Source of the DNA: Martinezella lusitana
Lineage (GTDB): Bacteria > Pseudomonadota > Alphaproteobacteria > Rhizobiales > Rhizobiaceae
Reading direction: 5' to 3'
NCBI RefSeq assembly: GCF_016901135.1
Contig: NZ_JAFEVL010000062.1
Location: forward strand, 124,001-188,000
DNA length: 64,000 nt
Shown in pieces: positions 8,501 to 50,001 of the stretch (position 1 is its first letter; every line of letters begins with the position of its first letter). The notes beneath the pieces are model-generated. The model searched no databases, was not told the DNA's origin, and was given only the letters and a program-made list of their open reading frames with translations. The translations under genes and the position numbers were made by a program.

Positions 8501-8717
8501 CGATACCCGTCATGCCTTGCTCGATGACCTTGGTCACCGAGTTTTCGACGGTTGCGGCATCGGCGCCGGGATAGGTGGCGCTGATGCTCACCGTGGTGGG
8601 CGCGATTTGCGGATATTGCGAGATCGACAGTGTGAGGATCGACAACGCGCCCGCGAGCATGATGACGATGGCGATAACCCAGGCAAAGATCGGCCGGTCA
8701 ATGAAAAAACGAGACAT
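5574..8717 (-). CDS. RND efflux permease, AcrB/MexB family
   Basis: A 1047-residue HAE1-family RND transporter, the length expected for AcrB homologues. It begins [23 protein letters not shown]. The TM4 relay [21 protein letters not shown] carries the Asp pair, and the C-terminal half has the expected [10 protein letters not shown] and [18 protein letters not shown] blocks. The ATG at 8717 is preferred over an in-frame TTG one codon upstream because GAGGTGG precedes it by about 5 bp. It lies 9 bp downstream of its periplasmic adaptor gene, forming a two-gene operon with no outer-membrane channel gene attached. Relatives in rhizobia and agrobacteria expel flavonoids, bile salts and antibiotics. 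Regulation is probably by the divergent TetR repressor. Confidence 0.95.
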
Positions 8718-8726
8718 CAAACCACC

Positions 8727-10031
8727 TCACTTCTGAGCGCCGGAGGCGGCCTTGATATCGGTCTTTTCCAATTCGGCCTGCTGCTGTGCGGGCTTGGCGT
8801 CGGCTGTTGCCTGCTTCACCTCGCCGGTCGCATCATCGATGGTCACGGGGGAGACAGTGACTTCCTGGCCGTCGCGGACACGCTGGCTGCCTTCGACGAT
8901 CACGCGGTCGCCGTCCGTCATGCCCTCATTGACAAGCCAGCTGTTGCCGATGCTGCGCTGTACCTTCAATACGCGCTGCTGCACCTTGCCGTCGGCAGCC
9001 ACGAACATGGCTGTAGGCTCGCCCTTGGTGTTGCGGAAAACGGCGCGCTGGGGCACGAGGAAGCTGTTTTCGGCAATGCCTTCCTGAATGGTGGCGCGCA
9101 CATACATGCCGGGCAGCAGTATACGATCGGGGTTGGGGAAGACGGCGCGCACGGTGATGGTGCCGACGGTTTCGGCGACAGCGGCCTCAGCAAACTCGAG
9201 CTTGCCGGCTTCCTTATATTGGCTGCCGTCTTCCAGCGTCAGATGCACGGAGACGTTGTCGCCGCTGGTTTTCAATCGGCCCTCGGCGATGGCACGACGG
9301 AATTCAAGCAGGTTCGTGCTCGACTGCGTGACGTCGACATTGATCGGATCGAGTTGGCGGATGGTGGTCAGTGCGGTCGTCTGGTCCGCGGTGACGAGGG
9401 CGCCAACGGTGACTGCGGAAGCATCGACACGGCCGGCGATCGGCGCGCGCATCTTGGTGTAGTCGAGATTGATGCGTGCTGTTTCCAGGGCCGCTTTCGC
9501 AGATGCCACGTCGGCATTCGCCTGAGCCAAAGTGGACACTGCATCGTCCAGATTTTGCTTGCTGACCGCGTCCTGTGCCGTGAGGCTCTTATAACGATCC
9601 ACCTTCGACTGAGCGCTCGGCAAGGCCCCTTCCGCCTTCTGCAAGGAAGCGACCGCGCTGTCATAGGATGCCTGGTAGGAGGCCGGATCGATCTCGTAGA
9701 GCACGTCGGCCGCCTTCACCTCGCTGCCTTCCTTGAAGTTACGGCTGCGAATGATGCCGCCGACCTGCGGTCGCACTTCGGCGACAAGATAGGCGCTGGT
9801 ACGGCCGGGCAGCTCGGCGGTGATTGCCACCGATTGCGGGTGCAGCGCCATGGCGCTGACTTCGATCTTGACGGCCGGCATGCCGCTTTGAGCATTCTTC
9901 TGCTCATTGCAGCCGACAAGCAGCATCGTGGCAGCGATCCCTGCGACGATCATCGCGGTTCGGGTGGCCAGGAGGCCGGTGGATGCCGCGGGATATATGG
10001 ATGCGGAGGTGAAAGAGGCACGCTTTCGCAC
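8727..10031 (-). CDS. RND periplasmic adaptor lipoprotein, AcrA family
   Basis: A 434-residue membrane-fusion protein that links the RND permease to an outer-membrane channel. The start is the GTG at 10031, because AGGAA lies 8 bp upstream; the frame remains open further upstream but runs into the divergent regulator. A basic N-terminus is followed by a hydrophobic segment and a lipobox (LLVGC), so it is a lipoprotein anchored by Cys. The following regions are as in AcrA: a lipoyl/beta-barrel part (VAEVRPQVGGIIRSRNF), an alpha-helical hairpin around residues 110-190 (SYDSAVASLQKAEGALPSAQ), and the second lipoyl half (ARINLDYTKMRAPIAGRV). The C-terminus is Ala/Lys/Gln-rich and probably disordered. 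Confidence 0.95.
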   Translation of the reverse strand: MRKRASFTSASIYPAASTGLLATRTAMIVAGIAATMLLVGCNEQKNAQSGMPAVKIEVSAMALHPQSVAITAELPGRTSAYLVAEVRPQVGGIIRSRNFKEGSEVKAADVLYEIDPASYQASYDSAVASLQKAEGALPSAQSKVDRYKSLTAQDAVSKQNLDDAVSTLAQANADVASAKAALETARINLDYTKMRAPIAGRVDASAVTVGALVTADQTTALTTIRQLDPINVDVTQSSTNLLEFRRAIAEGRLKTSGDNVSVHLTLEDGSQYKEAGKLEFAEAAVAETVGTITVRAVFPNPDRILLPGMYVRATIQEGIAENSFLVPQRAVFRNTKGEPTAMFVAADGKVQQRVLKVQRSIGNSWLVNEGMTDGDRVIVEGSQRVRDGQEVTVSPVTIDDATGEVKQATADAKPAQQQAELEKTDIKAASGAQK

Positions 10032-37671: not shown

Positions 37672-37847
37672 GATTGCTTGACGGGGTAATTTCATCCCTC
37701 CGAACTGGCGGCATGGCCCTCGGGACGGCGATGTCCTTTTCTTCGGCTCTTGCCAGGCGGAAATGATCCGTCATAGCTTTGCCACAAGGTCGCTCCAATT
37801 GCGGCTCACATCGGCTATGAAATTTTCTCGGCTAAGTGAGGTCGATC

Positions 37848-38504
37848 GTGCGTGTTCTGCTTGTTGAAGACGACAATATTCTCGGCTCATCGCTCAAGAA
37901 GGCCCTGGAAAAACATGCCTACGGCGTCGACTGGATGCGGGACGGCGAATCCGGCCTCGAGGCTGCGCAGCATTCCCACTTTGCGGCGATCGTTCTTGAT
38001 ATCAATCTGCCGCAGCTCGGCGGCATGGAGGTTCTGCGGCGCATCCGGCAGCGTGGCAACGCGGTGCCCGTGCTGCTGTTGACGGCGCTCGATTCCGTGC
38101 GTCAGAAGGTTGAGGGGCTGGATGAGGGCGCCGATGACTATCTGGTCAAGCCGTTCGATCTCGACGAGTTGCTTGCCCGGCTGCGCGCGCTGATCCGCCG
38201 GCGCGACGGCCGCACCGAAAGCGTCATTCGATGCGGCGATGTGGAGGTCGATCCTTCTGCCATGGTCGCTCGAAAGGACAATGTGCAGGTGCATACCACG
38301 GCGAAGGAGTTCCATCTGCTGAAGCTTCTCATGGAGCGCAGCGGCCGCTATGTGACGAAGAACGATATCGAGTATGCGCTTTATGACGCCGAAAACACCG
38401 TCGAGAGCAATACGATCGAAGTCACTATCTACAATCTGCGCAAGAAGCTCGGCACCGACTTCATCAAGTCGATCCGCGGTGTCGGCTACATGATCGAGCG
38501 ATGA
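37848..38504 (+). CDS. OmpR-family response regulator controlling the downstream operon (PmrA/QseB-like)
   Basis: A 218-residue response regulator: receiver with Asp51 (AIVLDINLPQLGG), Lys in DDYLVKPF, then a winged-helix domain (HTTAKEFHLLKLLMERSGRYVTKNDIEYALY) with the recognition helix VESNTIEVTIYNLRKKLG. The GTG at 37848 is chosen because GAGG lies seven bases upstream and the product then starts MRVLLVEDD; a GTG at 37836 would add four residues. Its stop overlaps the kinase start (ATGA). Direct repeats with an 11-bp step lie just downstream of the kinase gene, in front of the metabolic operon, and are the likely binding site. Confidence 0.92.
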   Translation: MRVLLVEDDNILGSSLKKALEKHAYGVDWMRDGESGLEAAQHSHFAAIVLDINLPQLGGMEVLRRIRQRGNAVPVLLLTALDSVRQKVEGLDEGADDYLVKPFDLDELLARLRALIRRRDGRTESVIRCGDVEVDPSAMVARKDNVQVHTTAKEFHLLKLLMERSGRYVTKNDIEYALYDAENTVESNTIEVTIYNLRKKLGTDFIKSIRGVGYMIER

Positions 38505-39877
38505 ACAACTCCACGCTTACCCGCAAGCTGTTTCTCCGGATCGCGCCGGTCGTCGTAGTGACGATCGTCGTGATTGCCGCCTTTGCCTTCAACAGCGCGA
38601 CCCGCGAGATCAACAATATCTACGATGCCCAGCTGATCGATGATGCGAATGTGATCTGGAGCCTGCTGCGCCGTCCCCTTGAAAGGGCGCCCGACCACGC
38701 GGCAAAGCAGATCGACGACATCGACTTCAACATGGACAATCAGCTGGCCTTCAACGAGGACGCCGACGATTATGCCGACGCGCACATGTTTCGCGCCTGG
38801 GTCGATGGCAATATCCGCTTCTACAGCAGCACGGCCTTTCTTTCCGATGTGCCGCAACAGAAGGTGGGGTTCACGACCCTGGCATATGGTGGAGAGGAGT
38901 GGCGCGTCTATTCGCTGCCGATCCCGAATTCGACCATCGTCATAGAGCTTGGCGAGAAGATCGCGCTTCGTGAAACGCTCGTCTCCAACATTCTGCTCAA
39001 TCTCTTCTTCCCGCTGCTGATGCTCGTGCCGGTCATCGGCTTCCTCATCTGGCTCGGCATCAACAGCGGCCTGCGTACGATTCACGGGCTGGTGCGGCAG
39101 ATCCGCACCCGATCGCCGGAGGATCTCTCGGCCATTCCCGTCGAAAGCTTGCCGCGAGATCTCCTGCCGCTCGGCCGGTCGATCAACCAGCTGCTGGAGA
39201 AGCTCGGCCAGTCGCTGACGCTTGAGCGGCGCTTTTCCGATCTTGCCGCGCATCAGTTGCGCACGCCCCAGGCCAGCGTGAAACTGTTGCTGCAGATGCT
39301 TGGAAACAGCGACAGCGAGAATGAACGGCAGGCGATCGTTGCCGATCTCGTTGCCAGCAACAACCGCGCCATTCATCTGATTGAGCAGCTGCTGCGACTG
39401 GCGAGGGTCAGTCATCATCCGCTCAATCCGACGTCGGTGACGCTCTATCATCTGGTGGCGTCGGTGCTTGCCGAATTCGGCAATATCATCACCAGCCGCG
39501 AGCTCGACGTGGTGCTGCAGGGAGATGAAACACTGCAGGTCCAGACCGACGAATCGCTGATCCACATGATGATCAGCAACCTCCTGGACAATGCCATCAA
39601 ATACACGCCCGTCGGCGGCGAGATCAAGGTTTCGATCACGTCGGAAGACGGTTTCGGCCGGATTTCGATCAGTGACAGCGGGCCTGGTATTCCGCCCCAG
39701 GAAAGGGAAGCGGTGTTCCAGCGGTTCTATCGGCTGAATACGCTTCACACGGAAGGCGCCGGCCTCGGGCTCGCCATCGTCGCGGATACGGCAGACCGGC
39801 TCTCGGCGACAGTCGAGCTTTCAACGCCGCGTCGGGGCAAGGGTCTCCAGGTCGACCTGAGATTGCTCGCAAGCTAA
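38501..39877 (+). CDS. Sensor histidine kinase with acidic periplasmic domain
   Basis: A 458-residue kinase. TM1 is at residues 13-31 and TM2 at about 165-187, enclosing a periplasmic domain of some 130 residues with a markedly acidic stretch (IDDIDFNMDNQLAFNEDADD, residues 71-90). The phosphorylated His251 is in AAHQLRTPQAS; N, G1, F and G2 boxes follow (NLLDNAIKYTP, DSGPGIP, FQRFYR, GAGLGLAIV). Acidic sensor patches in PhoQ and PmrB bind cations or cationic peptides, so a similar signal is possible but is inference. It is co-translated with the regulator and lies 103 bp before the HAD phosphatase gene. Confidence 0.92.
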   Translation: MNNSTLTRKLFLRIAPVVVVTIVVIAAFAFNSATREINNIYDAQLIDDANVIWSLLRRPLERAPDHAAKQIDDIDFNMDNQLAFNEDADDYADAHMFRAWVDGNIRFYSSTAFLSDVPQQKVGFTTLAYGGEEWRVYSLPIPNSTIVIELGEKIALRETLVSNILLNLFFPLLMLVPVIGFLIWLGINSGLRTIHGLVRQIRTRSPEDLSAIPVESLPRDLLPLGRSINQLLEKLGQSLTLERRFSDLAAHQLRTPQASVKLLLQMLGNSDSENERQAIVADLVASNNRAIHLIEQLLRLARVSHHPLNPTSVTLYHLVASVLAEFGNIITSRELDVVLQGDETLQVQTDESLIHMMISNLLDNAIKYTPVGGEIKVSITSEDGFGRISISDSGPGIPPQEREAVFQRFYRLNTLHTEGAGLGLAIVADTADRLSATVELSTPRRGKGLQVDLRLLAS

Positions 39878-39896: not shown

Positions 39897-39935
39897 TTTC
39901 ATTTTCGCATCATTTTCAGCTCATACCCGGCTCAT
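39897..39935 (+). promoter_or_regulatory. Four 11-bp-spaced direct repeats, likely response-regulator box
   Basis: Hexamers TTTCAT (39897), CATCAT (39908), GCTCAT (39919) and GCTCAT (39930) recur with 5-bp spacers, an exact 11-bp register. They share the pattern NNTCAT. OmpR/PhoB/PmrA regulators bind such head-to-tail repeats. The array lies 46 bp upstream of the HAD phosphatase ATG and directly after the gene for a matching kinase/regulator pair. Confidence 0.7.
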
Positions 39936-39980: not shown

Positions 39981-40664
39981 ATGCAGGTGTTTTGCGATTT
40001 TGATGGAACCATATCCATCGAAGACGCGACGGATATGGTGTTGTCCCGTTTCGCCGGTTCCGAGTGGGAAGACATAGAGCAGCTGTGGAAGCAGGGGCTG
40101 ATCGGCTCCGGCGAGTGCATGCGTCGGCAGATCGCTCTCATTCAGGCAAGCAGGGCGGAACTGGATCGGCTTCTCGACACTGTGTCGATCGACCCGGGTT
40201 TCGAAGGCTTCCTGTCGTATTGCCGCGGCGGCGAGATGCCGGTGACCATCGTCAGCGACGGTGTCGATTACTTCATCCGCCGCATTCTGGCGCGTCATGG
40301 CATCGACGGCCTGCCGATCGTTGCCAACGTGCTCACCTGTAGCTTCGCCCAGGACCGCGAGTCCTATTCACTGTTCCCGCCGTTCTCGGCAGCCGGCTGC
40401 TTATCCGGTTCAGGCGTCTGCAAATGCCGCGTTGTCGATAGCGTCGAGCTGCAGGTCTACATCGGCGATGGGCGAAGCGATTTTTGCGTTTCCGACAAGG
40501 TCGACCTCGTTTTCGCAAAGGCCAAGCTTGCCGAGTACTGCGATGAAAACGGCATTCCCTATGTCGCTTTCGAAGATTTTTCCGATCTGCTTCCGAAGAT
40601 GGAAGCAGTTCTACCCAGCGTCGTACGGCGCCCCCGTGTGCTGCCGCATTCCAAGACAGCATGA
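39981..40664 (+). CDS. HAD-family phosphatase, MtnX-like
   Basis: A 227-residue HAD hydrolase of the MtnX/phosphoserine-phosphatase-like group. Motif I is FCDFDGTIS (Asp6 nucleophile, Asp8 acid), motif II the Ser in IVSDGVDYF, and motif IV is YIGDGRSDF, so all Mg and phosphate ligands are present. A Cys-rich segment (GCLSGSGVCKC) is also typical of MtnX relatives. The ATG 39981 has AAAGGG upstream; 13 in-frame residues 5' are excluded. It is the first gene of the nine-gene operon, so a phosphorylated small molecule is probably dephosphorylated in that pathway. No other methionine-salvage genes are near, so the true MtnX reaction is unlikely. Confidence 0.85.
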   Translation: MQVFCDFDGTISIEDATDMVLSRFAGSEWEDIEQLWKQGLIGSGECMRRQIALIQASRAELDRLLDTVSIDPGFEGFLSYCRGGEMPVTIVSDGVDYFIRRILARHGIDGLPIVANVLTCSFAQDRESYSLFPPFSAAGCLSGSGVCKCRVVDSVELQVYIGDGRSDFCVSDKVDLVFAKAKLAEYCDENGIPYVAFEDFSDLLPKMEAVLPSVVRRPRVLPHSKTA

Positions 40665-40684
40665 ATCTGACTGAGAGGCATTGA

Positions 40685-42106
40685 ATGAAAACGAATGTAG
40701 CCGAAGCCTTCAGTGGCGACACGCAAGCGCCCGTCCGTTCCGAGGAGGAGTTGCGTGTCCTCGAAGAGACCTACTGCTCGCACGGCGATACGGTCCACTA
40801 CACGGACAAGCCAAAATTCTTTGAAGAATGCGAAGGCTCCTTTGTCTACGACCGCACAGGAACACCGTTTCTGGATCTGCAGATGTGGTATTCCGCCGTC
40901 AATTTCGGCTATCGCAACGAGCGCCTGAACAACGCTGCGCATCGCCAGCTCGACCGGCTGCCGCAGGTCGCATCGCAATATCTGCATCGTGAAAAGGTGG
41001 AGCTTGCGGCGATGATCGCCCAGGATGCCGAACTCAAGTTCGGGCACAAGGGCCGCGTTCACTTCAACGTCGGCGGTTCGCAGGCCGTCGAGGATTCGCT
41101 GAAGCTGGTGCGCAATTACACCGGCGGCAAGAGCCTGATGTTCGCCTTCGAAGGCGGCTATCACGGCCGCACGCTTGGCGCTTCGGCGATCACCTCGAGC
41201 TATCGCTATCGCCGCCGCTACGGTCATTTCGGGGATCGGGCGCAGTTCGTCGAATTTCCCTATCACTTCCGCGGCCCGAAAGGCATGTCGAAGGAAGAAT
41301 ACGGGCACTACTGCGTCCAGAAATTCGCCCGTCTGTTCGAGAGCGAATACAACGGCGTCTGGGATCCGAAGGCCGGCAAGTCGGAATATGCCGCTTTCTA
41401 TATCGAGCCGATCCAGGGTACGGGCGGCTACGTCATTCCGCCGATGAACTTCTTCGTCGAGCTGAAGAAGGTGCTGGACGAACACGGCATCCTGCTCGTC
41501 GTCGACGAAATCCAGATGGGCGTCTACCGCACCGGCAAGCTCTGGTCGATCGAGCATTTCGGTGTCTCGCCCGATATCCTGGTTTTCGGCAAGGCCATCA
41601 CCAACGGGCTCAATCCGCTTTCCGGCGTATGGGCAAGGGAAGAGATGATCAACCCGACCATCTTCCCGCCCGGCTCGACGCATTCGACATTCGCCAGCAA
41701 CCCGATGGGGACCGCCGTGGCACTCGAAACGATGAAGATGTTGGAGGAGGAGGATTTCGGCGCGGCCATCATGGCCAAGGGCGCCTATTTCCTCGATGGG
41801 CTGAAACAATTGCAGAAGCGCCATGCCATCGTCGGCGAAGTCGACGGGCTGGGCCTCGCCCTGCGGATGGAAATCTGCAAGGACGACAGCTACACGCCCG
41901 ACAAGGCGACGATGGACTGGCTCTGCGACGAAGGCATGAAGGCCGACCTGCAGGTCGGCGCAAAGATGTACGGCCTCGTGCTTGACGTCGGCGGCTACCA
42001 CAAGAACGTCATCACCTTCGCGCCCAACCTGCTGATCACCCGCGAAGAGATCGATCTGGCTCTCGCCCTGCTCGATCAGCTTCTAACCCGCGCCGCCCGG
42101 AGATAA
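40685..42106 (+). CDS. Class III PLP-dependent aminotransferase
   Basis: A 473-residue fold-type I enzyme of the ornithine/acetylornithine/GABA aminotransferase class. PLP Lys303 is in FGKAITNGLNP, Asp274 in LVVDEIQMGVYRTG, and the glycine block FEGGYHGRTLGA (155-166) binds the phosphate. The N-terminal extension of about 45 residues and the 'QMWYSAVNFGYRN' segment are unlike the common ArgD/GabT enzymes. It moves an amino group to or from an omega-amine, aldehyde or keto acid. It sits 20 bp after the phosphatase gene and 4 bp before the arginase-like gene; together they could make or process a diamine or amino-alcohol. Specificity is unknown. Confidence 0.9.
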   Translation: MKTNVAEAFSGDTQAPVRSEEELRVLEETYCSHGDTVHYTDKPKFFEECEGSFVYDRTGTPFLDLQMWYSAVNFGYRNERLNNAAHRQLDRLPQVASQYLHREKVELAAMIAQDAELKFGHKGRVHFNVGGSQAVEDSLKLVRNYTGGKSLMFAFEGGYHGRTLGASAITSSYRYRRRYGHFGDRAQFVEFPYHFRGPKGMSKEEYGHYCVQKFARLFESEYNGVWDPKAGKSEYAAFYIEPIQGTGGYVIPPMNFFVELKKVLDEHGILLVVDEIQMGVYRTGKLWSIEHFGVSPDILVFGKAITNGLNPLSGVWAREEMINPTIFPPGSTHSTFASNPMGTAVALETMKMLEEEDFGAAIMAKGAYFLDGLKQLQKRHAIVGEVDGLGLALRMEICKDDSYTPDKATMDWLCDEGMKADLQVGAKMYGLVLDVGGYHKNVITFAPNLLITREEIDLALALLDQLLTRAARR

Positions 42107-42110
42107 GACG

Positions 42111-43064
42111 GTGCAACTCCTGCTTCTTCATCTCGATGATGCGTTGGAGTTGCAGCCTGATTTCGTGCGCGCCTGCAAGTTCGCGGGCGCGTACCAGTAT
42201 TTCGACAAGAATGCGGGCCGAGAGATTAGGCTCTGGGGCAAGCAGAAAGCACTTGCCGAACTCGGCCGTGAAATCGTCAAGAATACACCCGCGACGGGCA
42301 AGGATCCGCAGCTCTGTTTCATGGGATCCGGCGATTTCCATCACATCACGGCGATGCTGCTCGAAGGCGCGTTGGAGCGGCAATCCGGCGCGGCGACGTT
42401 GATCCATTTCGACAATCATCCGGATTGGGTGACTTTCGACGGCGGCATGCATTGCGGCTCCTGGGTCAATACCGCCCTTGCCAATCCCCGCATCCAGAAG
42501 GTCATCACGATAGGCGTCTGCAGCCACGATCTTCGCAGCCCGGAACGCAAAGGGGCGAACCTGCACTGGCTCGGCGAAGGCAAGCTCGAGCTCTATCCTT
42601 ACGAACATCCGCCGAGCCGCGTGCTGGCCGACTATGGCAGTGGCGCCAGCTATCGACAGGAAAAAGGCGCATTGCACTGGAAATCGATCTCGGAGATCGG
42701 CGAGGAGAATTTCATCGACCGCATGCTCAGCCGTATTCGCACCGAGGCTGTCTATGTGACGATCGACAAGGATGTCCTTGCCGCGGACGACGCCGTCACG
42801 AACTGGGATCAGGGCCGCATGCGGCTGCCCTATCTGCTGGCACTGATCAGCGAAATCGGCAGCCGTCATCGCATCATCGGCGCTGACGTCATCGGTGACT
42901 ATTCCGCTCCGAGCTACGCCGGTAGCCTTAGGACCCAGCTGATGAAGCGAGCCGAGATCTTCATCGATCAGCCGCGCGTCCGGCAGGGAGCTGAAACGAC
43001 CAGAAACATCAACAGTGCGGCCAATCACGCGCTGCTGGAAGTGCTGGCGGAGTACATGCAATGA
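42111..43064 (+). CDS. Arginase/ureohydrolase-family protein
   Basis: A 317-residue protein with the metal-site motifs of the arginase fold in altered form: GSGDFHHIT (72-80, in place of GGDHS), HFDNHPDW (99-106, giving the Asp-x-His-x-Asp set) and TIDKDVL (217-223, the Asp-x-Asp pair). All six expected metal ligands can be assigned, so hydrolase activity on a guanidino, amidino or acetyl-amino group is plausible; arginases, agmatinases and some deacetylases share this core. It starts with GTG at 42111, with GGAG 8 bp upstream. Its stop overlaps the next start (ATGA). It differs from true arginases throughout the active-site loops, so the substrate is open. Confidence 0.8.
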   Translation: MQLLLLHLDDALELQPDFVRACKFAGAYQYFDKNAGREIRLWGKQKALAELGREIVKNTPATGKDPQLCFMGSGDFHHITAMLLEGALERQSGAATLIHFDNHPDWVTFDGGMHCGSWVNTALANPRIQKVITIGVCSHDLRSPERKGANLHWLGEGKLELYPYEHPPSRVLADYGSGASYRQEKGALHWKSISEIGEENFIDRMLSRIRTEAVYVTIDKDVLAADDAVTNWDQGRMRLPYLLALISEIGSRHRIIGADVIGDYSAPSYAGSLRTQLMKRAEIFIDQPRVRQGAETTRNINSAANHALLEVLAEYMQ

Positions 43065-43414
43065 GTGGCATCCTGACCCTTCCCATGCTTGGGCTCATAC
43101 TCTTCTGCGTGCTGGCGGAGACGGCCCGCGAGGTTTGCTTCAAGCAATCGGCCAGCGAGCATACGCTGCTTTCGGCAATGGCGAAGCCGGTTACCTGGCT
43201 CGGTATCGTGTTCTGGGCCGTGGAGCTTTTTGCATGGACGGCTGTTCTCGAGCACGTTCCGCTCACCATCGCCTTTCCCCTTATGGCGTTGAGCTATGTC
43301 GTCATCGTGTTCGCCGGCGCCGTGATCTTCAAAGAAAATATCAACCTACGCCATGCAACGGGCGTGTTCCTCGTGACCGCCGGCGTGGCCTGTGTGGGAG
43401 TTACCGGACTATGA
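43061..43414 (+). CDS. SMR/EamA-like half-transporter subunit 1
   Basis: A 117-residue protein with four transmembrane helices, the size and pattern of small multidrug resistance and ArnE/ArnF proteins. The end of the last helices (FPLMALSYVVIVFAGAVIFKENINLRHATGVFLVTAGVA, in pieces) follows the 'PLxxLxYVxxxxxxxxxFxExxxxxxxxGxxLIxxGV' pattern. It overlaps the genes on both sides by 4 bp. A second such subunit is encoded further down the operon (46217), and the two probably pair to flip or export a product, as ArnE and ArnF do with a lipid-linked aminosugar. Confidence 0.85.
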   Translation: MSGILTLPMLGLILFCVLAETAREVCFKQSASEHTLLSAMAKPVTWLGIVFWAVELFAWTAVLEHVPLTIAFPLMALSYVVIVFAGAVIFKENINLRHATGVFLVTAGVACVGVTGL

Positions 43415-44283
43415 AAATCTTTGCGCACACCAGATGGGATGTGGCGCCGGTTCTGGCTGCCGTCGCGCATCTTGCTTTCGATGTCTATCTGATCGTCGGC
43501 TTCGAAAGCCGTCCCCTGTGGCTCTCGGCGGTTCTTGGCTGCCTGTATGCCGTGTCGATCTCCTGGAACATCAACAGCATATCCCACAATTTCATCCATA
43601 CGCCCTATTTCAAGCCGCGCTGGATGAACTATGCCTTCAGCCTGCTGGAGTCGGTCGCGATCGGCTTCTCGCAGACCTATTATCACTGGGTGCATATGCG
43701 CCATCATTCCGGCAACAGCGACCGGCCGGACGAAAAGGGCGATACCATCGATCTGCTGTCGATCTATCGCCACGGCCGTGACGGTCAGCCCGAGAATGTG
43801 TGGTCCTACACATTTATGAGCTTCTTCCGCGACAGTCTCGGCGATATCCACAAGGCTATCTCCCGCAACCGCCCGTTCGATGCGGCCTGGGGTCGGTTCG
43901 AGCTCTTTTTCTTCCTCGGTCTTGCAGCTGTCGCGCTGCTTTATGACTGGAAGGCGGTGCTGTTCTTCGTGCCGTTCTATTATCTCGGCAATTGCCTGTC
44001 GTCCTTGAACGGCTACTACGAACATCTGAACGGCGACCCGGACGAGCCGATCGCCTGGGGCGTTTCCAGCCACAAGTCGTTCTACAACTGGCTGTGGTTC
44101 GGCAACGGCTATCATGCCGAACATCATTACCGGCCGCGTACCCACTGGACGAAACTGCCGACGCTACACGAGCAGATCAAGGAAGAGCAGGAAAAAGCCG
44201 GTACGCATGTCATCAGCACATGCCACGCACTCGGCTTCATGGCCAAGGAGAACCGGCAGTCGGAGCTCTCTCATGAAAGCTGA
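43411..44283 (+). CDS. Membrane fatty-acid desaturase/hydroxylase
   Basis: A 290-residue membrane di-iron enzyme. Its three histidine clusters are HNFIH (59-63), HMRHH (95-99) and HAEHH (235-239), the ligands of the di-iron centre, among four to six hydrophobic segments. Enzymes of this fold desaturate or hydroxylate acyl chains, or oxidise amines and alkanes, with O2. The start 43411 overlaps the preceding gene (ATGA). Unlike housekeeping desaturases it lies inside a biosynthetic operon, so its substrate is likely the acyl group attached or used by the pathway. The last 11 bp overlap the next gene. Confidence 0.88.
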   Translation: MKIFAHTRWDVAPVLAAVAHLAFDVYLIVGFESRPLWLSAVLGCLYAVSISWNINSISHNFIHTPYFKPRWMNYAFSLLESVAIGFSQTYYHWVHMRHHSGNSDRPDEKGDTIDLLSIYRHGRDGQPENVWSYTFMSFFRDSLGDIHKAISRNRPFDAAWGRFELFFFLGLAAVALLYDWKAVLFFVPFYYLGNCLSSLNGYYEHLNGDPDEPIAWGVSSHKSFYNWLWFGNGYHAEHHYRPRTHWTKLPTLHEQIKEEQEKAGTHVISTCHALGFMAKENRQSELSHES

Positions 44284-45088
44284 TGGGTTGAGCTTCTTCA
44301 TGGAGGGCTCAAATGGAAAAGGCGTGCTTCTTGTACACGGACTGACGGGCGCACCGGCTGAAATGAAGCTGATCGCCCGCCAACTCAATCGCAAGGGTTA
44401 CAGCATCTATGCACCGTTGCTGGCCGGTCACGGCGTCGATGTCGGCACGCTGCGGCGCACCCGCTGGGAAGATTGGCTCGATAGCGTCGTCGAGGCCTCG
44501 GCGTTGCTCGCCACGCGAACGCAGGAGGTTTTTGCCGCCGGCATCTGCGTCGGCGGAAAGCTGGCGCTGCTGGCCGCCGAACAGCAGCCGAAGGCGATCG
44601 ACGCGGTGGCTATCTATTCGCCCTGCTTTCACTATGACGGCTGGGATGTTCCCTTCTACTATCCGCTATTGTCGTCGCAGATCGGCTGGCTGTCCCGCAT
44701 TCCCTTCCTCGATCGCCTGAGCTTCAAGGAGACGGCCTCCCTCGGGATCAAGGACCAGCGGATGCGCCGGCTGATCGAAGGCATGGCAGGTGAAGGCATT
44801 CTGGAGAAATTCCCCGGCAAGGGGCTGGTCGAGATGCATCGGCTGGGCAAGACCCTCCGCGGCATGCTGCCGGGGATCCAGACACCGACGCTGATCCTCC
44901 ACGCCGAGGACGACGACCTCAGCAGTCCGAAACACGCACGCTACATCTCCGATCACATCGGCGGCCCGCATGAGCTGAAATGGATCAAGGACAGCTATCA
45001 CATGATCCATGTGGACCGACAGCATCGGCAGGTAGCGGATTTTACCGCAGATTTCTTCGAGGCGCGCCATGTCGCAGCCGCTGCTTAA
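44273..45088 (+). CDS. Alpha/beta hydrolase with Cys at the nucleophile elbow
   Basis: A 271-residue single-domain alpha/beta hydrolase of the carboxylesterase/monoacylglycerol-lipase size. The oxyanion segment is VLLVHGLTG (18-26); the nucleophile elbow reads GICVGG (90-95), with Cys92 where Ser is usual. The acid and base are visible in LILHAEDDDLSSP and DSYHMIHVDR, so the triad Cys-Asp-His is complete. Cys nucleophiles in this fold occur in dienelactone hydrolases and PHA-synthase relatives, and favour acyl transfer over hydrolysis. It overlaps the desaturase gene by 11 bp and the acyltransferase gene by 20 bp. I infer a role in releasing or transferring an acyl chain. Confidence 0.85.
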   Translation: MKADGLSFFMEGSNGKGVLLVHGLTGAPAEMKLIARQLNRKGYSIYAPLLAGHGVDVGTLRRTRWEDWLDSVVEASALLATRTQEVFAAGICVGGKLALLAAEQQPKAIDAVAIYSPCFHYDGWDVPFYYPLLSSQIGWLSRIPFLDRLSFKETASLGIKDQRMRRLIEGMAGEGILEKFPGKGLVEMHRLGKTLRGMLPGIQTPTLILHAEDDDLSSPKHARYISDHIGGPHELKWIKDSYHMIHVDRQHRQVADFTADFFEARHVAAAA

Positions 45089-46217
45089 AACCGTGCCCAG
45101 ACCAACGGGCAATCCGGTGGCCGAGGTTCACTTCAGCATCCGTGCGATCGGCCGCGATGCCTGGAACGCTTGTTTTCAGGGGAAGGTCGAGGATTATGAT
45201 TGCCTGCTTGCCATCGAGGAAGCCGGCATCGAAGGTTTCGAGTGGCGCTATATTACCGTCGTCGAGGACGGGCGCGTGAGCGCCGCCATGCCGGCTTTTC
45301 TGTGCCTCTACGCCCTGGACACGACGCTGGAAGAGGGCTTCCTGCGCAGGTCCGTCCGCCGCGTGCAGCGCTATTTCCCGAATTTTCTGAAGCTGCGCCT
45401 CGCCTGCCTGGGATCACCCTGCACCGAGACGGGCGCGATCGGCTTTCACCCCGACGTGCCGGACGAGCGCCGTGGCATGCTGTTTGCGGAGATGCTGTCT
45501 TTCTTCGAGCAGTTTGCCGTGACGGAAGATTGTGCGCTCGTCGGCCTCAAGGATATTCCGGAACAGGTTTCCGCCGAGCTTGGCGAGCCGCTTTCCGCAC
45601 ATGGCTATGCCTCGATCGGTGGTCTGCCGACGGCCTGGCTCGACATCGATTTCAAGACGATCGACGACTATCTCGCCAAGCTTTCCTCCGGCACCCGCAA
45701 GGACATGCGGCGCAAGCTGAAGTCCTTCGAACAGGTCAGGGTCGAGATCCGGACGGATTTCGGCGCGTTCCTGCCCGAGGTGATGGCGCTCTATCACGAC
45801 ACGCGAAACCGCAGCGACTGGCAGTTCGAGGAGCTCACCCCCGAATATTTCGAGGGAGTTCTCACCCGCATGGCCGGCCGTTCCTACTGCGCCTTCTACT
45901 TCATCGAGGACAAGCTGCTCGCCGCCAATCTGATCGTGCATGGTGAACATGTCGCCATCGACAAGTTCTTCTGCATGGATGGCGAAAAGGGCCGGCCGTA
46001 CAATCTCTATTTCCTGAGCTGGTTCACGAACCTGCGCTATTGCCTGGATCATGGCATAAGCCGCTATCAAAGCGGCCAGGCCTATTATGAGAACAAGATC
46101 AGGCTCGGCAGCAAGCTGACGCCCAACGCCATGTTCTTTCGCCATCGCAATCCCTTCCTTCAGAGACTGCTGCGGCTGGTGTCGCCGCTGTTCTCGACAG
46201 ATGAGGCAGGTGCGTGA
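45069..46217 (+). CDS. GNAT/FemAB-like N-acyltransferase
   Basis: A 382-residue protein with the layout of FemAB/'CelD-like' GNAT enzymes: an N-terminal half-domain and a second GNAT domain with 'LSSGTRKDMRRKLKSFEQ' near residue 205-222 and 'YLSW..YLDHGISRYQSGQAYYENKIRLG' near the end (fragments quoted). Such proteins transfer aminoacyl or fatty acyl groups to amines; several bacterial relatives make N-acyl amino acids. GAGG lies just upstream of the ATG. It follows the hydrolase with a 20-bp overlap and precedes the second SMR subunit with a 1-bp overlap, so it is translationally coupled. It is the best candidate to join the amine and the acyl chain. Confidence 0.8.
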   Translation: MSQPLLKTVPRPTGNPVAEVHFSIRAIGRDAWNACFQGKVEDYDCLLAIEEAGIEGFEWRYITVVEDGRVSAAMPAFLCLYALDTTLEEGFLRRSVRRVQRYFPNFLKLRLACLGSPCTETGAIGFHPDVPDERRGMLFAEMLSFFEQFAVTEDCALVGLKDIPEQVSAELGEPLSAHGYASIGGLPTAWLDIDFKTIDDYLAKLSSGTRKDMRRKLKSFEQVRVEIRTDFGAFLPEVMALYHDTRNRSDWQFEELTPEYFEGVLTRMAGRSYCAFYFIEDKLLAANLIVHGEHVAIDKFFCMDGEKGRPYNLYFLSWFTNLRYCLDHGISRYQSGQAYYENKIRLGSKLTPNAMFFRHRNPFLQRLLRLVSPLFSTDEAGA

Positions 46218-46642
46218 TGCCGATGCGTTTTTCCTGGCTTGCCGTGCCGGTGCTCAACACGCTGTTCCAGTTCTTCATCAAGCATGGGGCGGAGCAATTG
46301 GGCGATGGCGGCGCAGAGGCGTGGCTGTGGCAGGCGCTCTCCTCCTACTGGATATTGGCGGCGATCGCGGTCGAAATCGCCTGCTTCTTCATCTGGATGA
46401 ATGTGCTTGCCGAACTCGATCTCAGCCGGGCCTTTCCGCTTTCGGGCATCAGCTACGTGCTGATCATCGCGACCGGCTGGTTCGTCTTCGGCGAGCGGAT
46501 CGTCGCCCTGCAGGTGATCGGCAGCGGCTTGATCCTGACGGGTGTCTGGCTGATCGCGAGCGCCAACGTGGAAGCCGAGGATGATGGCGACTGGAACGCG
46601 AAGCGCGCCGCACCGCGCACCGTTGCCGGCAAGGATAGATGA
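46217..46642 (+). CDS. SMR/EamA-like half-transporter subunit 2
   Basis: A 141-residue protein with four transmembrane helices, similar in plan to subunit 1 (43061): 'LNTLFQFFIKHGAEQLG' at the start and 'LSRAFPLSGISYVLIIATGWFVFGERIVALQVIGSGLILTGV' (in pieces) at the end. The C-terminal 25 residues are charged and cytoplasmic. The ATG 46217 overlaps the upstream stop by one base (TGATG). Two unequal SMR-type subunits in one operon suggest a heterodimer like ArnE/ArnF or EbrAB, moving the pathway product or its lipid carrier across the inner membrane. Confidence 0.85.
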   Translation: MPMRFSWLAVPVLNTLFQFFIKHGAEQLGDGGAEAWLWQALSSYWILAAIAVEIACFFIWMNVLAELDLSRAFPLSGISYVLIIATGWFVFGERIVALQVIGSGLILTGVWLIASANVEAEDDGDWNAKRAAPRTVAGKDR

Positions 46643-47982
46643 TGTCCAACCTGCAAGCTGAAAATCGCCCCAAAGGCAAGGGGTTTGCCGTTTTCTCCAG
46701 CCTTGCGGACTGGTGCCTGAAACGCGCTCTTTCATCCATCGTCACGCGCGGTGCGCTGACCGTGACGACCGCAAGCGGCCGTGTCTTCACATTCGGCGAT
46801 GGCACCGGCGAAGCGGTGCATGTCCGTTTCACCGATAACCGGGCGCAATGGGCACTCCTGATCGATGCCGATAAGAGGCTTGGCGAGCTCTACATGGACG
46901 GCCGGTTTATCGTCGAGCAGGGCTCCCTCTACGACTTCGTCGCCATGATGCTGCGGGAGGCGCAGAACAGCACCCACCCGGTGATCGCGCGCGTCATCGA
47001 TCATGCCCGAACCAAGCTGCGAATATTCCGTCATCGCAACCTTCCGGGTCGTTCAAGGGCGAATGTCGCGCATCACTACGATCTCGACGGCCGGCTCTAC
47101 GAACTCTTCCTCGACCCGGACCGGCAGTATTCCTGCGCTTATTTCGAGCATGCCGACCAGTCTCTCGAAGAGGCGCAGATCGCCAAGAAAAGGCATCTGG
47201 CCGCCAAGCTTGTGATCGAGCCGGACAACAGCATTCTCGATATCGGCTGCGGCTGGGGCGGCCTTGCGCTGCACCTGGCCGAACATGCGCCTGGAGGTTA
47301 CGTGCTCGGTGTGACGCTGTCCGAAGAGCAGCACGCCTACGCCTCCAAGCGCGTGGCCGACACGGCTGGCGGAACGCCGGCGGAAGTTCAATTCGCGCTG
47401 AGAGACTATCGCAGCCTGACCGGCCGCTTCGACAGGATCGTCTCGGTCGGCATGTTCGAGCATGTCGGTCTCGCGTCCTACCGCACCTTCTTCCGCAAGT
47501 GTGCAGAATTGCTTGAGGATGACGGCATCATGGTGCTTCACACCATCGGCTGCTCGGCGACGCCCGGCTTCACCACGCCGTGGCTCGACAAATACATCTT
47601 CCCTGGCGGCTATATTCCGGCACTTTCGGAAATCGTGCCGGAAATTGAGGCGGCCGGGCTTGCGATCACCGATGTCGAGGTGTTGCGCCTGCACTATGCG
47701 AAGACGCTCGAAAGCTGGCGGGCGCGTTTCTTGGCGCGCTGGCCCGAGGCCGCGCAGCTTTACGACGAGCGCTTCTGCCGCATGTGGGAATATTATCTTT
47801 CGACGGCGGAGGCTGCCTTCCGCTATGAAGATCTCGTCGTCTTCCAGATCCAGATGGCCAAGCGCAACGACGTCATTCCGCTCACGCGAAACTACATCGC
47901 TGATCACGAAGTGCGCAGCGCCTCAAAAATCGATGTTGAAGGTTCTGTTGAGGGTAAAGCCGATAATATTCTGATCGGGTGA
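46639..47982 (+). CDS. Cyclopropane-fatty-acyl-phospholipid synthase-like methyltransferase
   Basis: A 447-residue SAM-dependent enzyme of the CFA-synthase family. The SAM motif is ILDIGCGWGGLALHLAE (199-215), preceded by 'HYDLDGRLYELFLDPDRQYSCAYF' (146-169) and followed by 'GMFEHVG' with the bicarbonate-site Glu. Such enzymes add a methylene or methyl to the double bond of an acyl chain, and the operon also contains a desaturase that could create that bond. It begins with two ATG codons (46639 and 46642) and overlaps the upstream stop. The last 60 bp overlap the converging OmpV gene. Genomes of this group usually carry a separate housekeeping cfa gene, but that cannot be checked here. Confidence 0.9.
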   Translation: MMSNLQAENRPKGKGFAVFSSLADWCLKRALSSIVTRGALTVTTASGRVFTFGDGTGEAVHVRFTDNRAQWALLIDADKRLGELYMDGRFIVEQGSLYDFVAMMLREAQNSTHPVIARVIDHARTKLRIFRHRNLPGRSRANVAHHYDLDGRLYELFLDPDRQYSCAYFEHADQSLEEAQIAKKRHLAAKLVIEPDNSILDIGCGWGGLALHLAEHAPGGYVLGVTLSEEQHAYASKRVADTAGGTPAEVQFALRDYRSLTGRFDRIVSVGMFEHVGLASYRTFFRKCAELLEDDGIMVLHTIGCSATPGFTTPWLDKYIFPGGYIPALSEIVPEIEAAGLAITDVEVLRLHYAKTLESWRARFLARWPEAAQLYDERFCRMWEYYLSTAEAAFRYEDLVVFQIQMAKRNDVIPLTRNYIADHEVRSASKIDVEGSVEGKADNILIG

Positions 47983-48771
47983 GCCGAACTGCGAGGTGAT
48001 CGGGCTGTCGGCAGCATCGCCCACCAGACGGTTATATTTCTCGTAGACCTGCACGCTCCACGCGGGCGAGACCGTATAGGTAGCAGCCACCGTGAAACCG
48101 ACAGATTTCAGGCCGGCACCGGCGTCGAAGGCGCTGACATGACCGTTCCTCGCGGCTTGACCCGCTGAGATGCCAAAGTTGCTGCGCATGTAGATGGAGT
48201 TTGCCAGTGATAGGCGAGGCCCGGCGGACAGGAGCCATTTGTCGCCAACGGGCTGAAACCAATCGAGCCCCAGATCACCGACCAGGCCGTCGCCGCCCCA
48301 AAGGGACTGGCGCACTTCCGTCCGAAACCGAAGCTGATTTTCCATCAACCAATATTGTGCGAAGCCGCCGGCATCGAAATTCCAGCGCACCCTGCGCTGG
48401 CTCTGCAGGTGCAGATTATTGAGGTCCAGGCGGTCATCTCTCAAGCCAACCACGGGACCAATTTCGAGACCGCCGAGGTCGAAGAGAGTATAGTCGAAGT
48501 TGTCGTCCGGGGCGCTGTATTCCGGGGCTTCACCAAGGCGATGGAAATCGAAAGAGGGCAAGGCGCTGAAGGAATGATGCTTCGATCCTTCGTAGTTGGG
48601 GCCATACTCCACGGTGGCTCCGAGCGTCACAACCCAAGTGTCGGATGAGGACTTTGTGGTGTCCTGCGCCATGGACGATGTTGGAAACGCACCGATTGCG
48701 GACGCTATCAGAAGACCCATTCCGGCCATTGTCGGCAACCGGGCAGGGAAAGATGTCCCAACACTTAACAC
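47923..48771 (-). CDS. MipA/OmpV-family outer-membrane protein
   Basis: About 282 residues, with a signal peptide ending near SSMAQDT and then a 12-strand-type beta-barrel with alternating hydrophobic residues and a terminal Phe (TLNRTFNIDF), the outer-membrane insertion signal. Marker blocks are 'VTLGATVEYGPNYEGSKHHSFSALPSFDF' and 'GPVVGLRDDR'. OmpV/MipA proteins scaffold murein synthases or act as porins. The frame starts with GTG at 48771; an ATG at 48729 is an alternative but would remove the only positively charged residue of the signal peptide. Its 3' end overlaps the converging CFA-synthase-like gene by 60 bp. The 483 bp upstream (48772-49254) contain no gene that I can support. Confidence 0.87.
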   Translation of the reverse strand: MLSVGTSFPARLPTMAGMGLLIASAIGAFPTSSMAQDTTKSSSDTWVVTLGATVEYGPNYEGSKHHSFSALPSFDFHRLGEAPEYSAPDDNFDYTLFDLGGLEIGPVVGLRDDRLDLNNLHLQSQRRVRWNFDAGGFAQYWLMENQLRFRTEVRQSLWGGDGLVGDLGLDWFQPVGDKWLLSAGPRLSLANSIYMRSNFGISAGQAARNGHVSAFDAGAGLKSVGFTVAATYTVSPAWSVQVYEKYNRLVGDAADSPITSQFGSPDQNIIGFTLNRTFNIDF

Positions 48772-49254: not shown

Positions 49255-50001
49255 ATGAACGATCAAGGATCTCGCAAACCGGGCATTACGGGGTGGTTAA
49301 GCCGCAACGAGCCCCTGTTGCTTGTAATGTTCGCCGCCCTTTCAGGCGGAGTTCTTCTGTTCGTCTATCTGACGGGCGAGGTTCTCGAGGGAAGTACAAG
49401 GGGATTTGACGAGGCGATCTTGCTGGCGCTTCGCCAGCCTAGTGACCTGTCTACTCCCATAGGGCCGAGCTGGCTGACCCATGCCGTCAAGGACATTACA
49501 AGTCTCGGCGGCACCACCGTCCTCGCGATGATGACGGTCCTGGTGACGGTCTATCTGTTGCTCGACCGGCGGCGCGCCATTGCCATCTTCGTATTAGCTT
49601 CGGTGCTTGGCGGATGGGCGCTGAGCACGACGTTGAAGCTCGGCGTTGCGCGGCCACGGCCGGATATCGTGCCGCATCTGGTCGAGGTTCATGATCTGAG
49701 CTTCCCGAGCGGCCATGCGATGGTATCGGCGGTTACCTATCTGACGCTTGCAGCGCTCATTTCCGGTACGCGACGCTATCGCTCGACGCGCATCTTCACC
49801 GTCGCGGTCGGCATCCTGCTGACATTGATGATCGGCGCGAGCCGGGTCTATCTCGGCGTGCACTATCCGACTGATGTTCTCGGCGGCTGGTGCGCCGGGG
49901 CAACCTGGGCGCTCGGCTGCTGGATCATCGCCCGCCGCTACATCTCGCCATCCCGAGGCACCGAAGGTTCGGCGCGGATCGACGCCAGCTCGGTTAATTA
50001 A
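49255..50001 (+). CDS. PAP2-family membrane phosphatase
   Basis: A 248-residue inner-membrane protein with about six helices and the three PAP2 phosphatase motifs: KLGVARPRP (128-136), PSGH (151-154) and SRVYLGVHYPTD (196-207). The family removes phosphate from lipid phosphates such as phosphatidic acid, undecaprenyl pyrophosphate or lipid A. GATAGGAC lies just before the ATG. It is a single gene, convergent with the DUF1007 gene. It may be the undecaprenyl-pyrophosphatase type, but specificity within PAP2 cannot be read from sequence. Confidence 0.92.
   Translation: MNDQGSRKPGITGWLSRNEPLLLVMFAALSGGVLLFVYLTGEVLEGSTRGFDEAILLALRQPSDLSTPIGPSWLTHAVKDITSLGGTTVLAMMTVLVTVYLLLDRRRAIAIFVLASVLGGWALSTTLKLGVARPRPDIVPHLVEVHDLSFPSGHAMVSAVTYLTLAALISGTRRYRSTRIFTVAVGILLTLMIGASRVYLGVHYPTDVLGGWCAGATWALGCWIIARRYISPSRGTEGSARIDASSVN

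Follow-up and report, generated by a model that had tools for sequence, protein, structure and literature searches.

Background

Among the routes that shape bacterial surface charge are the Arn/EptA systems, MprF and the ornithine lipids. The arn operon is regulated by PmrAB and is associated with undecaprenyl-phosphate-linked 4-amino-4-deoxyarabinose (Und-P-Ara4N) and the ArnE/ArnF flippase, and the DevABC-TolC system exports heterocyst glycolipids. MprF (LpiA) combines a tandem-GNAT fold with a flippase domain, and the OlsBA and OlsF pathways produce ornithine lipids, which are recorded for R. tropici CIAT 899 in PMC3557214; the same paper gives two chromosomal cfa genes for CIAT 899 and PRF 81. 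Here these systems are compared with a nine-gene operon of the root-nodule bacterium Martinezella lusitana, located at 39981-47982 in a 64,000 nt stretch of contig NZ_JAFEVL010000062.1 (assembly GCF_016901135.1, forward-strand positions 124,001 to 188,000; hereafter 'the window'). Its genes, g1 to g9, are abbreviated as HAD (a phosphatase), AT3 (a class III aminotransferase), ARG (an arginase-fold enzyme), SMR1 (a small transporter subunit), DES (a desaturase), ABH (an alpha/beta hydrolase), FEM (a FemAB-like transferase), SMR2 (a second small subunit) and CFA (a cyclopropane fatty acid synthase paralogue). Seven of them form a conserved core, which may direct the synthesis of a cationic amino-lipid.

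Comparison with described systems

The operon resembles arn in having two small SMR subunits, nearest to ArnE and ArnF, an aminotransferase and a neighbouring two-component system of the PmrA/QseB type. By contrast, the ArnE and ArnF models score SMR1 at 50.6 and 43.1 bits and SMR2 at 20.6 and 42.9 bits, respectively, against equivalog cut-offs of 92 for ArnE and 99 for ArnF; neither an Arn sugar enzyme nor ArnT is found among the Pfam and NCBIfam matches of the nine proteins (for AT3, among its best 25 NCBIfam matches); and the window's aminotransferase is of class III rather than the ArnB type, an additional DegT aminotransferase being present in some other clusters. With MprF the operon shares the tandem-GNAT fold and a proposed flippase, the structural model of FEM matching the soluble domains of MprF in what is a fold resemblance only, but these functions reside in separate genes alongside further core enzymes, and FEM has neither an MprF-type family match (E <= 0.01) nor a fused membrane domain. 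N-acylation and a cationic lipid, as in the Ols pathways, are proposed for this operon too; unlike those pathways, it has no match of FEM to an OlsB-type family and no OlsA-like acyltransferase among its nine products. Similarly, the cores of some relatives adjoin an ABC exporter for which DevA and DevC are the best models of the ATPase and permease (L182 and L235, the latter from A. tumefaciens H13-3, being the two tested), yet the scores do not reach the cut-offs of those models, and no such exporter belongs to the operon of the window.

As cut-offs are missed, and family matches and partner genes are absent, the operon is assigned to none of the Arn, MprF or Ols systems; it may work like them. 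Literature searches, with subscription journals mostly outside their reach, retrieved no description of this gene set, consistent with its original prediction as an undescribed system.

A conserved seven-gene core

Scanning a collection of species genomes with FEM, a search that finds close relatives only, identified 74 named loci, in all of which FEM is present by construction. The core, consisting of HAD, AT3, ARG, SMR1, ABH, FEM and SMR2, is complete and in the same order in 73 of these loci; ARG is found in 73, and each of the other six genes in all 74. The exception is Ochrobactrum sp. Q0168 (L089), where no ARG match was found and AT3 is separated from SMR1 by about 0.1 kb (8696-8805). 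FEM identity extends down to 43% across the named loci, the closest named homologue being that of R. lusitanum P1-7 (96% identical). The genera harbouring the core comprise Rhizobium, Pararhizobium, Neorhizobium, Agrobacterium, Allorhizobium, Phyllobacterium, Ochrobactrum/Brucella, Pleomorphomonas and one Brevundimonas metagenome-assembled genome (MAG), and further loci come from records named only to a higher rank. Two loci, L107 and L108, were taken to be the same as Pleomorphomonas oryzae loci L099 and L105 and were not counted as new. The full seven-gene core is also present on a contig of a Candidatus Riflebacteria MAG (L104), its proteins being 34-66% identical to those of the window, with AT3 at 66%; this may reflect either inter-phylum transfer or mis-binning, contamination of the MAG being possible.

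A broader view came from a phylum sample of 398 genomes, the window's own included. AT3 orthologues, defined at E <= 1e-110, occur in 26 of these and ARG homologues in 16, all of which fall within the 26; HAD lies in the fetched AT3 neighbourhood of 24 of the 26 genomes and ABH in that of 22; three of the four loci where ABH was missed lie at the end of a contig.

A FEM scan gave matches at E <= 1e-10 in 19 genomes, of which seven hold most of the core, two have FEM and ABH only (L114, L115) and ten apparently have FEM alone; the FEM matches in G073, G190, G212 and G240 were judged from short loci only.

Elsewhere in Proteobacteria, all seven families recur rearranged in L139-L141, L144, L147-L152, L230 and Xanthomonas sacchari. 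For instance, L140 and L141 have ARG-SMR1-SMR2 apart from HAD-AT3-ABH-FEM; L151 and L152 have ABH-SMR1-SMR2-DegT-HAD-AT3-FEM-ARG; and in L148 and L150 HAD-ABH-SMR1-SMR2-DegT converges on AT3-FEM-ARG, a trio that forms a compact unit in L148-L150 and in Bartonella. In X. sacchari R1 a single cluster contains HAD, AT3, a ketosynthase (KS), an acyl carrier protein (ACP), FEM, ARG, DegT, two SMR genes, ABH, HlyD, an ABC ATPase, TolC and a histidine kinase. The arrangement is not attributable to chance, as the gene order is preserved in further taxonomic orders and, at 34-66% protein identity, in a second phylum. The search for gene order across genomes envisaged by the original prediction sustains its view of a single functional unit; since the core genes co-occur over distant lineages even when rearranged, the refutation test it named, genes scattered in relatives, does not refute that unity. 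The core acts as modules used together.

The distribution is patchy: of 100 genomes from the genus 45 have ARG, and a class sample gave two of 289 genomes, both counts including the window's own. AT3 is found on 34 plasmid records, 17 of them predicted to be conjugative, and of eight plasmid regions viewed, seven hold the core and one, from Bartonella, holds part of it. Separately, L187:8912-10291 encodes an AT3 relative, 55% identical, whose fetched surroundings contain no further core gene; it could show the role of AT3 alone.

Motifs and folds of the core enzymes

Judged by their motifs, the core enzymes look active but divergent. In HAD the motifs DFDGT and GDGRSD are conserved. AT3 is the most conserved core gene, with 303 of 473 columns kept in at least 97% of 78 mostly rhizobial rows, and it retains the lysine that binds pyridoxal phosphate (PLP; FGKA). 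At the NVIT position it has Thr (in at least 97% of the 78 rows) where the solved relatives 9wqz, 7vno, 9wrf and 5wya have Arg, the C-terminal residue shared by enzymes of the gamma-aminobutyrate-aminotransferase type and one with a role in 2-oxoglutarate/alpha-amino-acid aminotransferases; the substitution therefore argues against AT3 being a plain enzyme of that kind. Among the named models and structures closest to AT3 are aminobutyrate aminotransferases and amino-acid racemases.

ARG belongs to the ureohydrolase superfamily by fold and metal-ligand motifs: GSGDFHH and DNHPDW are present in 80 of 80 rows, DKD is invariant in 25 rows, and PF00491 matches at 40.7 bits (cut-off 22). Its AlphaFold2 model (pLDDT 92) has agmatinase, proclavaminate amidinohydrolase and guanidinases as fold neighbours, but the protein falls under the curated agmatinase cut-offs (31.3 vs 174.3 for TIGR01230; 26.7 vs 302 for NF002564).

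The model of FEM (pLDDT 88) has the FemX-type tandem-GNAT fold, its best matches being FemX and Sbb17, then the synthase domains of MprF/alanyl-phosphatidylglycerol synthase (A-PGS); the clavulanate tandem GNAT, acetyl-CoA-binding 2wpw/2wpx, is also matched. In Pfam the protein matches PF04339 and PF13480 only, with no fused membrane domain, and it matches no NCBIfam family (E <= 0.01). The predicted fold would be compatible with either an acyl group or an aminoacyl-tRNA as donor. In the original prediction this enzyme joined an amine to an acyl chain; the GNAT-like fold stands, whereas the transferred group may be aminoacyl rather than acyl.

Among 96 ABH sequences, 75 have Cys as the nucleophile and 21 have Ser. 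When 96 rows were aligned pairwise to SMR1, the position of E20 held Glu in 75, Asp in 16 and Ala in two, with three unaligned, such that an acidic residue is present in 91 of 93 aligned rows. The matching position of SMR2 held Asn in 67, Asp in 12, Glu in seven, Ser in seven and Gly in one of 96 rows, with two unaligned.

Accessory genes

Desaturation and cyclopropanation had been proposed as steps of the pathway proper, but of the 74 named loci only 61 have DES and 46 have CFA; being optional, they are not part of the core chemistry. With regard to the CFA count, the gene of L102 lies outside the operon and that of L080 is cut by a contig end. The window's CFA scores 297 bits against PF02353 (cut-off 27), 592.4 against NF053839 (cut-off 600) and 302.4 against NF008686 (cut-off 400), and a second full CMAS-family gene is present in the same genome on contig C54.

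Outside the named loci, genes for an ACP and a FabF-like KS adjoin HAD/AT3 in L144, L185, L186 and Xanthomonas, the KS proteins of L144 and L185 being 51% identical; no KS lies near the core in any of the 74 named loci. KS was considered as a fixed partner and rejected, as just eight of the 25 genomes with all or part of the cluster, including that of L144, encode a protein at least 50% identical to the L144 KS. It is located within the cluster in six of these and elsewhere in two (L225, L226). The latter, L226:1367-12071 of genome G121, is another KS and ACP locus, the neighbours of which, read from sequence, resemble sphingolipid synthesis genes.

At L183:7864-9465, ABH is naturally fused to the N-terminal half of FEM, and matches to the FEM half, which is the part covered, are found in open frames of 502 and 538 amino acids (aa) in two more genomes. 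As the accessory genes encode chain enzymes and an ABH-FEM fusion exists, an acyl group in the product and a partnership of ABH with FEM are favoured. Accordingly, of the 'acyl-amine (amino-lipid)' originally predicted, the acyl part is favoured by DES, CFA and the ACP-KS pair, and the amine, the chain and the product itself are putative. In Xanthomonas, L182 and two Agrobacterium plasmids, one from A. salinitolerans and one from A. tumefaciens H13-3, exporter genes adjoin the core; those on the plasmids are TolC and an ABC exporter.

Regulation and neighbouring genes

Directly upstream of HAD on the same strand (37836-39877) lies a response regulator and histidine kinase pair nearest to QseBC and PmrAB. 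A homologue of the regulator occurs somewhere in 67 of the 74 named loci, and a same-strand kinase lies within 1.5 kb upstream of HAD in 67, L033 included; distant clusters carry NtrBC-like pairs in place of the PmrAB/QseBC-like ones. The TCAT repeats between kinase and HAD are for the most part retained when the window is aligned with 14 loci, and weaker in L073 and L079. A strict form of the motif was found in the 400 nt piece around the HAD start in 38 of 66 loci with an adjacent kinase, none of the eight others and 11 of 1480 background pieces; L033, which has both the kinase and the TCAT site, fell among those eight, probably through an over-long HAD open reading frame (ORF). The motif is mostly confined to Rhizobium and its near relatives. 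Across the window's genome it had seven matches with up to two mismatches, the one perfect match being that in the window, and a control pattern had none. The repeats at 39899-39935 are a likely candidate site of the OmpR-type regulator. Three of the seven matches overlap, forming a single site at G000:C65:217400-217440 near polysaccharide-type genes.

A MipA gene is present in 57 of the 74 named loci; L139-L141 and L191 have one alongside, too. Both the upstream two-component system and the antisense MipA, found in most relatives' loci, were missed by the original prediction. On plasmid pAt2788a of Agrobacterium fabrum (L231:16097-19284) the operon is followed by MipA, EptA, which scores over an NCBIfam cut-off, and DgkA. 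Taken together, the two-component system, MipA, the ABC/TolC exporters of relatives and this single eptA-dgkA neighbourhood point to envelope remodelling or secretion. An EptA_B_N-family gene is also present on another contig of the window's genome.

Proposed function and alternatives

From the gene set, its order, conservation and associations, and the predicted folds and catalytic motifs described above, a putative scheme can be drawn for the substrates, reaction order, product, SMR heterodimer, regulation and phenotype. The explanation favoured, at a little under even confidence, is a stress-regulated pathway for a positively charged, acyl-containing envelope molecule, a cationic amino-lipid; it is preferred because accessories that make or edit chains are combined with an enzyme that forms amines, a pair resembling a flippase and regulation of the envelope type. 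AT3 would aminate a small carbonyl compound, possibly phosphorylated, from which HAD would remove the phosphate; FEM would form an amide, ARG would free a nitrogen of a blocking or donor group, and ABH would work with FEM on an acyl intermediate. SMR1 and SMR2 would then flip the cationic product across the inner membrane as an ArnE/ArnF-like heterodimer. In rhizobia, DES and CFA would edit the chain, and in other bacteria ACP and KS would supply it and an ABC/TolC exporter take the product onward, the pathway being turned on by a PmrAB/QseBC- or NtrBC-like two-component system. A serinol head group, arising if AT3 aminates dihydroxyacetone phosphate before HAD acts, has nothing for or against it beyond the gene families.

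A number of observations weigh against the cationic amino-lipid. Many intact cores, L096-L099 and L104 among them, have none of DES, CFA, KS and ACP nearby, making the case for an acyl chain indirect there. N-acylation by FEM is not established, because its fold relatives include enzymes that use aminoacyl-tRNA, and SMR2 lacks an acid at the position matching E20 in rhizobial rows (Asn in 67, Ser in seven). As a regular partner, eptA/dgkA was rejected, occurring in one record only among the loci examined. The core also splits, as parts alone are carried by L181, L183 and L185 and by Bartonella. In the former three, HAD-AT3-ABH is found with neither ARG nor SMR nearby; the phylum-sample search gave no ARG match in these genomes, where a FEM-like gene sits on a different contig and, in G348, has an SMR-type gene as its neighbour (L227). 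In the bat-associated Bartonella sp. HY406, one record of five and the one on which this description rests, a plasmid carries AT3-FEM-ARG beside an MBOAT O-acyltransferase (L233:10926-16929), with no HAD, ABH or SMR nearby. Furthermore, G121, G198, G150 and G988 hold most of the core but have no AT3 match at E <= 1e-50. In L109-L111 the class III enzyme beside DES is merely 22-23% identical to AT3; that of L109 (13296-15840) resembles glutamate-1-semialdehyde aminomutase, and its genome has no AT3 orthologue at E <= 1e-50. The HY406 locus possibly also encodes an AlgJ-like protein, a guess from the start of the sequence.

The main rival, which we regard as rather unlikely, is that the operon makes a secreted specialised metabolite, such as a fatty amine, an amide, or a lipopeptide-like antibiotic or signal, pumped out by the SMR pair with or without ABC/TolC, with the two-component system controlling production rather than envelope charge. 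The patchy occurrence of ARG across genus and phylum is typical of specialised-metabolite clusters, and the plasmid carriage of AT3, half of it on predicted conjugative records, and the adjoining tripartite exporters and ACP-KS genes also suit such a product. However, MipA, the PmrAB/QseBC-like regulators and the single EptA/DgkA neighbourhood point to the envelope, the two exporters tested best match a glycolipid exporter type, and no non-ribosomal peptide synthetase or large polyketide synthase was noticed in the annotated regions, for which annotation is partial.

A narrower variant, and a distinctly improbable one, is a split MprF-like aminoacylation in which FEM would move an aminoacyl group from tRNA to a product of AT3 and HAD, either an amino-lipid or a small amine, ARG would trim it (for example from arginyl to ornithinyl) and the SMR pair would replace the flippase domain of MprF. 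FemX and Sbb17, the best folds for FEM, are aminoacyl-tRNA dependent and are followed by the MprF-type synthase domains, ARG retains its ureohydrolase fold and metal motifs, and AT3-FEM-ARG is compact in Bartonella and L148-L150. Against this stand the absence of an MprF-type family match for FEM and the sharing of its fold with a tandem GNAT that binds acetyl-CoA. Very improbable is an operon for catabolism or detoxification of an amine or guanidine, whereby ARG would hydrolyse a guanidino compound, AT3 deaminate, HAD dephosphorylate and the SMR proteins export toxic amines, DES and CFA adjusting membrane fluidity under the same regulator. Such a role would suit the fold neighbours of ARG and the aminobutyrate aminotransferases and amino-acid racemases near AT3, but ARG lies far below both agmatinase cut-offs and AT3 is without Arg at the NVI[R/T] position; moreover, FEM and ABH are as constant as the other genes, which would be unexpected in catabolism, and ACP-KS, exporter and two-component genes join the core in places.

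A wider form of the cationic amino-lipid explanation is offered tentatively and considered doubtful: a modular machine, found in Proteobacteria and possibly Riflebacteria, making cationic envelope lipids of an undescribed class. It would be a further, partly plasmid-borne route to a positive surface charge, in addition to Arn/EptA, MprF and ornithine lipids. AT3-FEM-ARG would be the head-group module and HAD-ABH-SMR1-SMR2 that for release and flipping, with DES/CFA or ACP/KS as plug-in chain modules and exporters as further plug-ins. If the favoured explanation is right, genes annotated as 'MtnX-like phosphatase', 'class III aminotransferase', 'arginase family', 'EamA transporter', 'GNAT' and 'alpha/beta fold hydrolase' would all serve a single pathway, which symbionts, agrobacteria associated with plants and Xanthomonas possess and of which bat Bartonella plasmids carry a part. 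A new envelope lipid, or a secreted lipid-like compound, would be expected together with a regulator-target pair, and the pathway would perhaps contribute to the envelope robustness of stress-tolerant bean symbionts.

Operon layout in the window

The nine genes, families, order and spacing originally described were borne out by ORF coordinates and family searches (Table 1), all nine ORFs being present in tight succession on the + strand: successive gaps of 20 and 4 bp are followed by overlaps of 4, 4, 11, 20, 1-4 and 1-4 bp. The Pfam assignments are over the gathering cut-off for all except SMR1, which is slightly under that of EamA (26.4 vs 28.2) and, like SMR2, matches the ArnE and ArnF models below their cut-offs.

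Table 1. Coordinates and family assignments of the operon and adjacent features (positions are those of the window)
Feature	Description	Position	Strand	Family matches
g1 HAD	MtnX-like HAD-IB phosphatase, 227 aa	39981-40664	+	PF06888/PF12710; TIGR01489 106 bits (cut-off 81.6)
g2 AT3	Class III PLP aminotransferase, 473 aa	40685-42106	+	PF00202
g3 ARG	Divergent ureohydrolase-fold (arginase-fold) enzyme, 317 aa	42111-43064	+	PF00491
g4 SMR1	SMR/EamA subunit nearest ArnE, 117 aa; acidic E20 in first segment	43061-43414	+	
g5 DES	FA_desaturase-family enzyme, 290 aa; accessory	43411-44283	+	PF00487
g6 ABH	Alpha/beta hydrolase, 271 aa; GICVGG motif (Cys nucleophile)	44273-45088	+	PF12146
g7 FEM	FemAB_like tandem-GNAT transferase, 382 aa	45069-46217	+	PF04339/PF13480
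g8 SMR2	SMR/EamA subunit nearest ArnF, ~141 aa	46217-46642 (or GTG start 46214)	+	PF00892
g9 CFA	Cyclopropane fatty acid synthase paralogue, 446 aa; accessory	46642-47982 (or ATG start 46639)	+	PF02353
Response regulator	OmpR-type	37836-38504	+	Nearest NCBIfam models QseB, PmrA, below cut-offs
Histidine kinase	Sensor kinase	38501-39877	+	Nearest models QseC, CzcS-type, PmrB, below cut-offs
TCAT repeats	Four units, 11 bp apart; candidate site of OmpR-type regulator	39899-39935	+	
MipA	MipA/OmpV family protein; 3' end overlaps g9	47923-48771	-	PF06629, 134 bits

Downstream of MipA, at 49255-50001, lies a gene for a PAP2-family phosphatase, which is kept in part of the Rhizobium loci.

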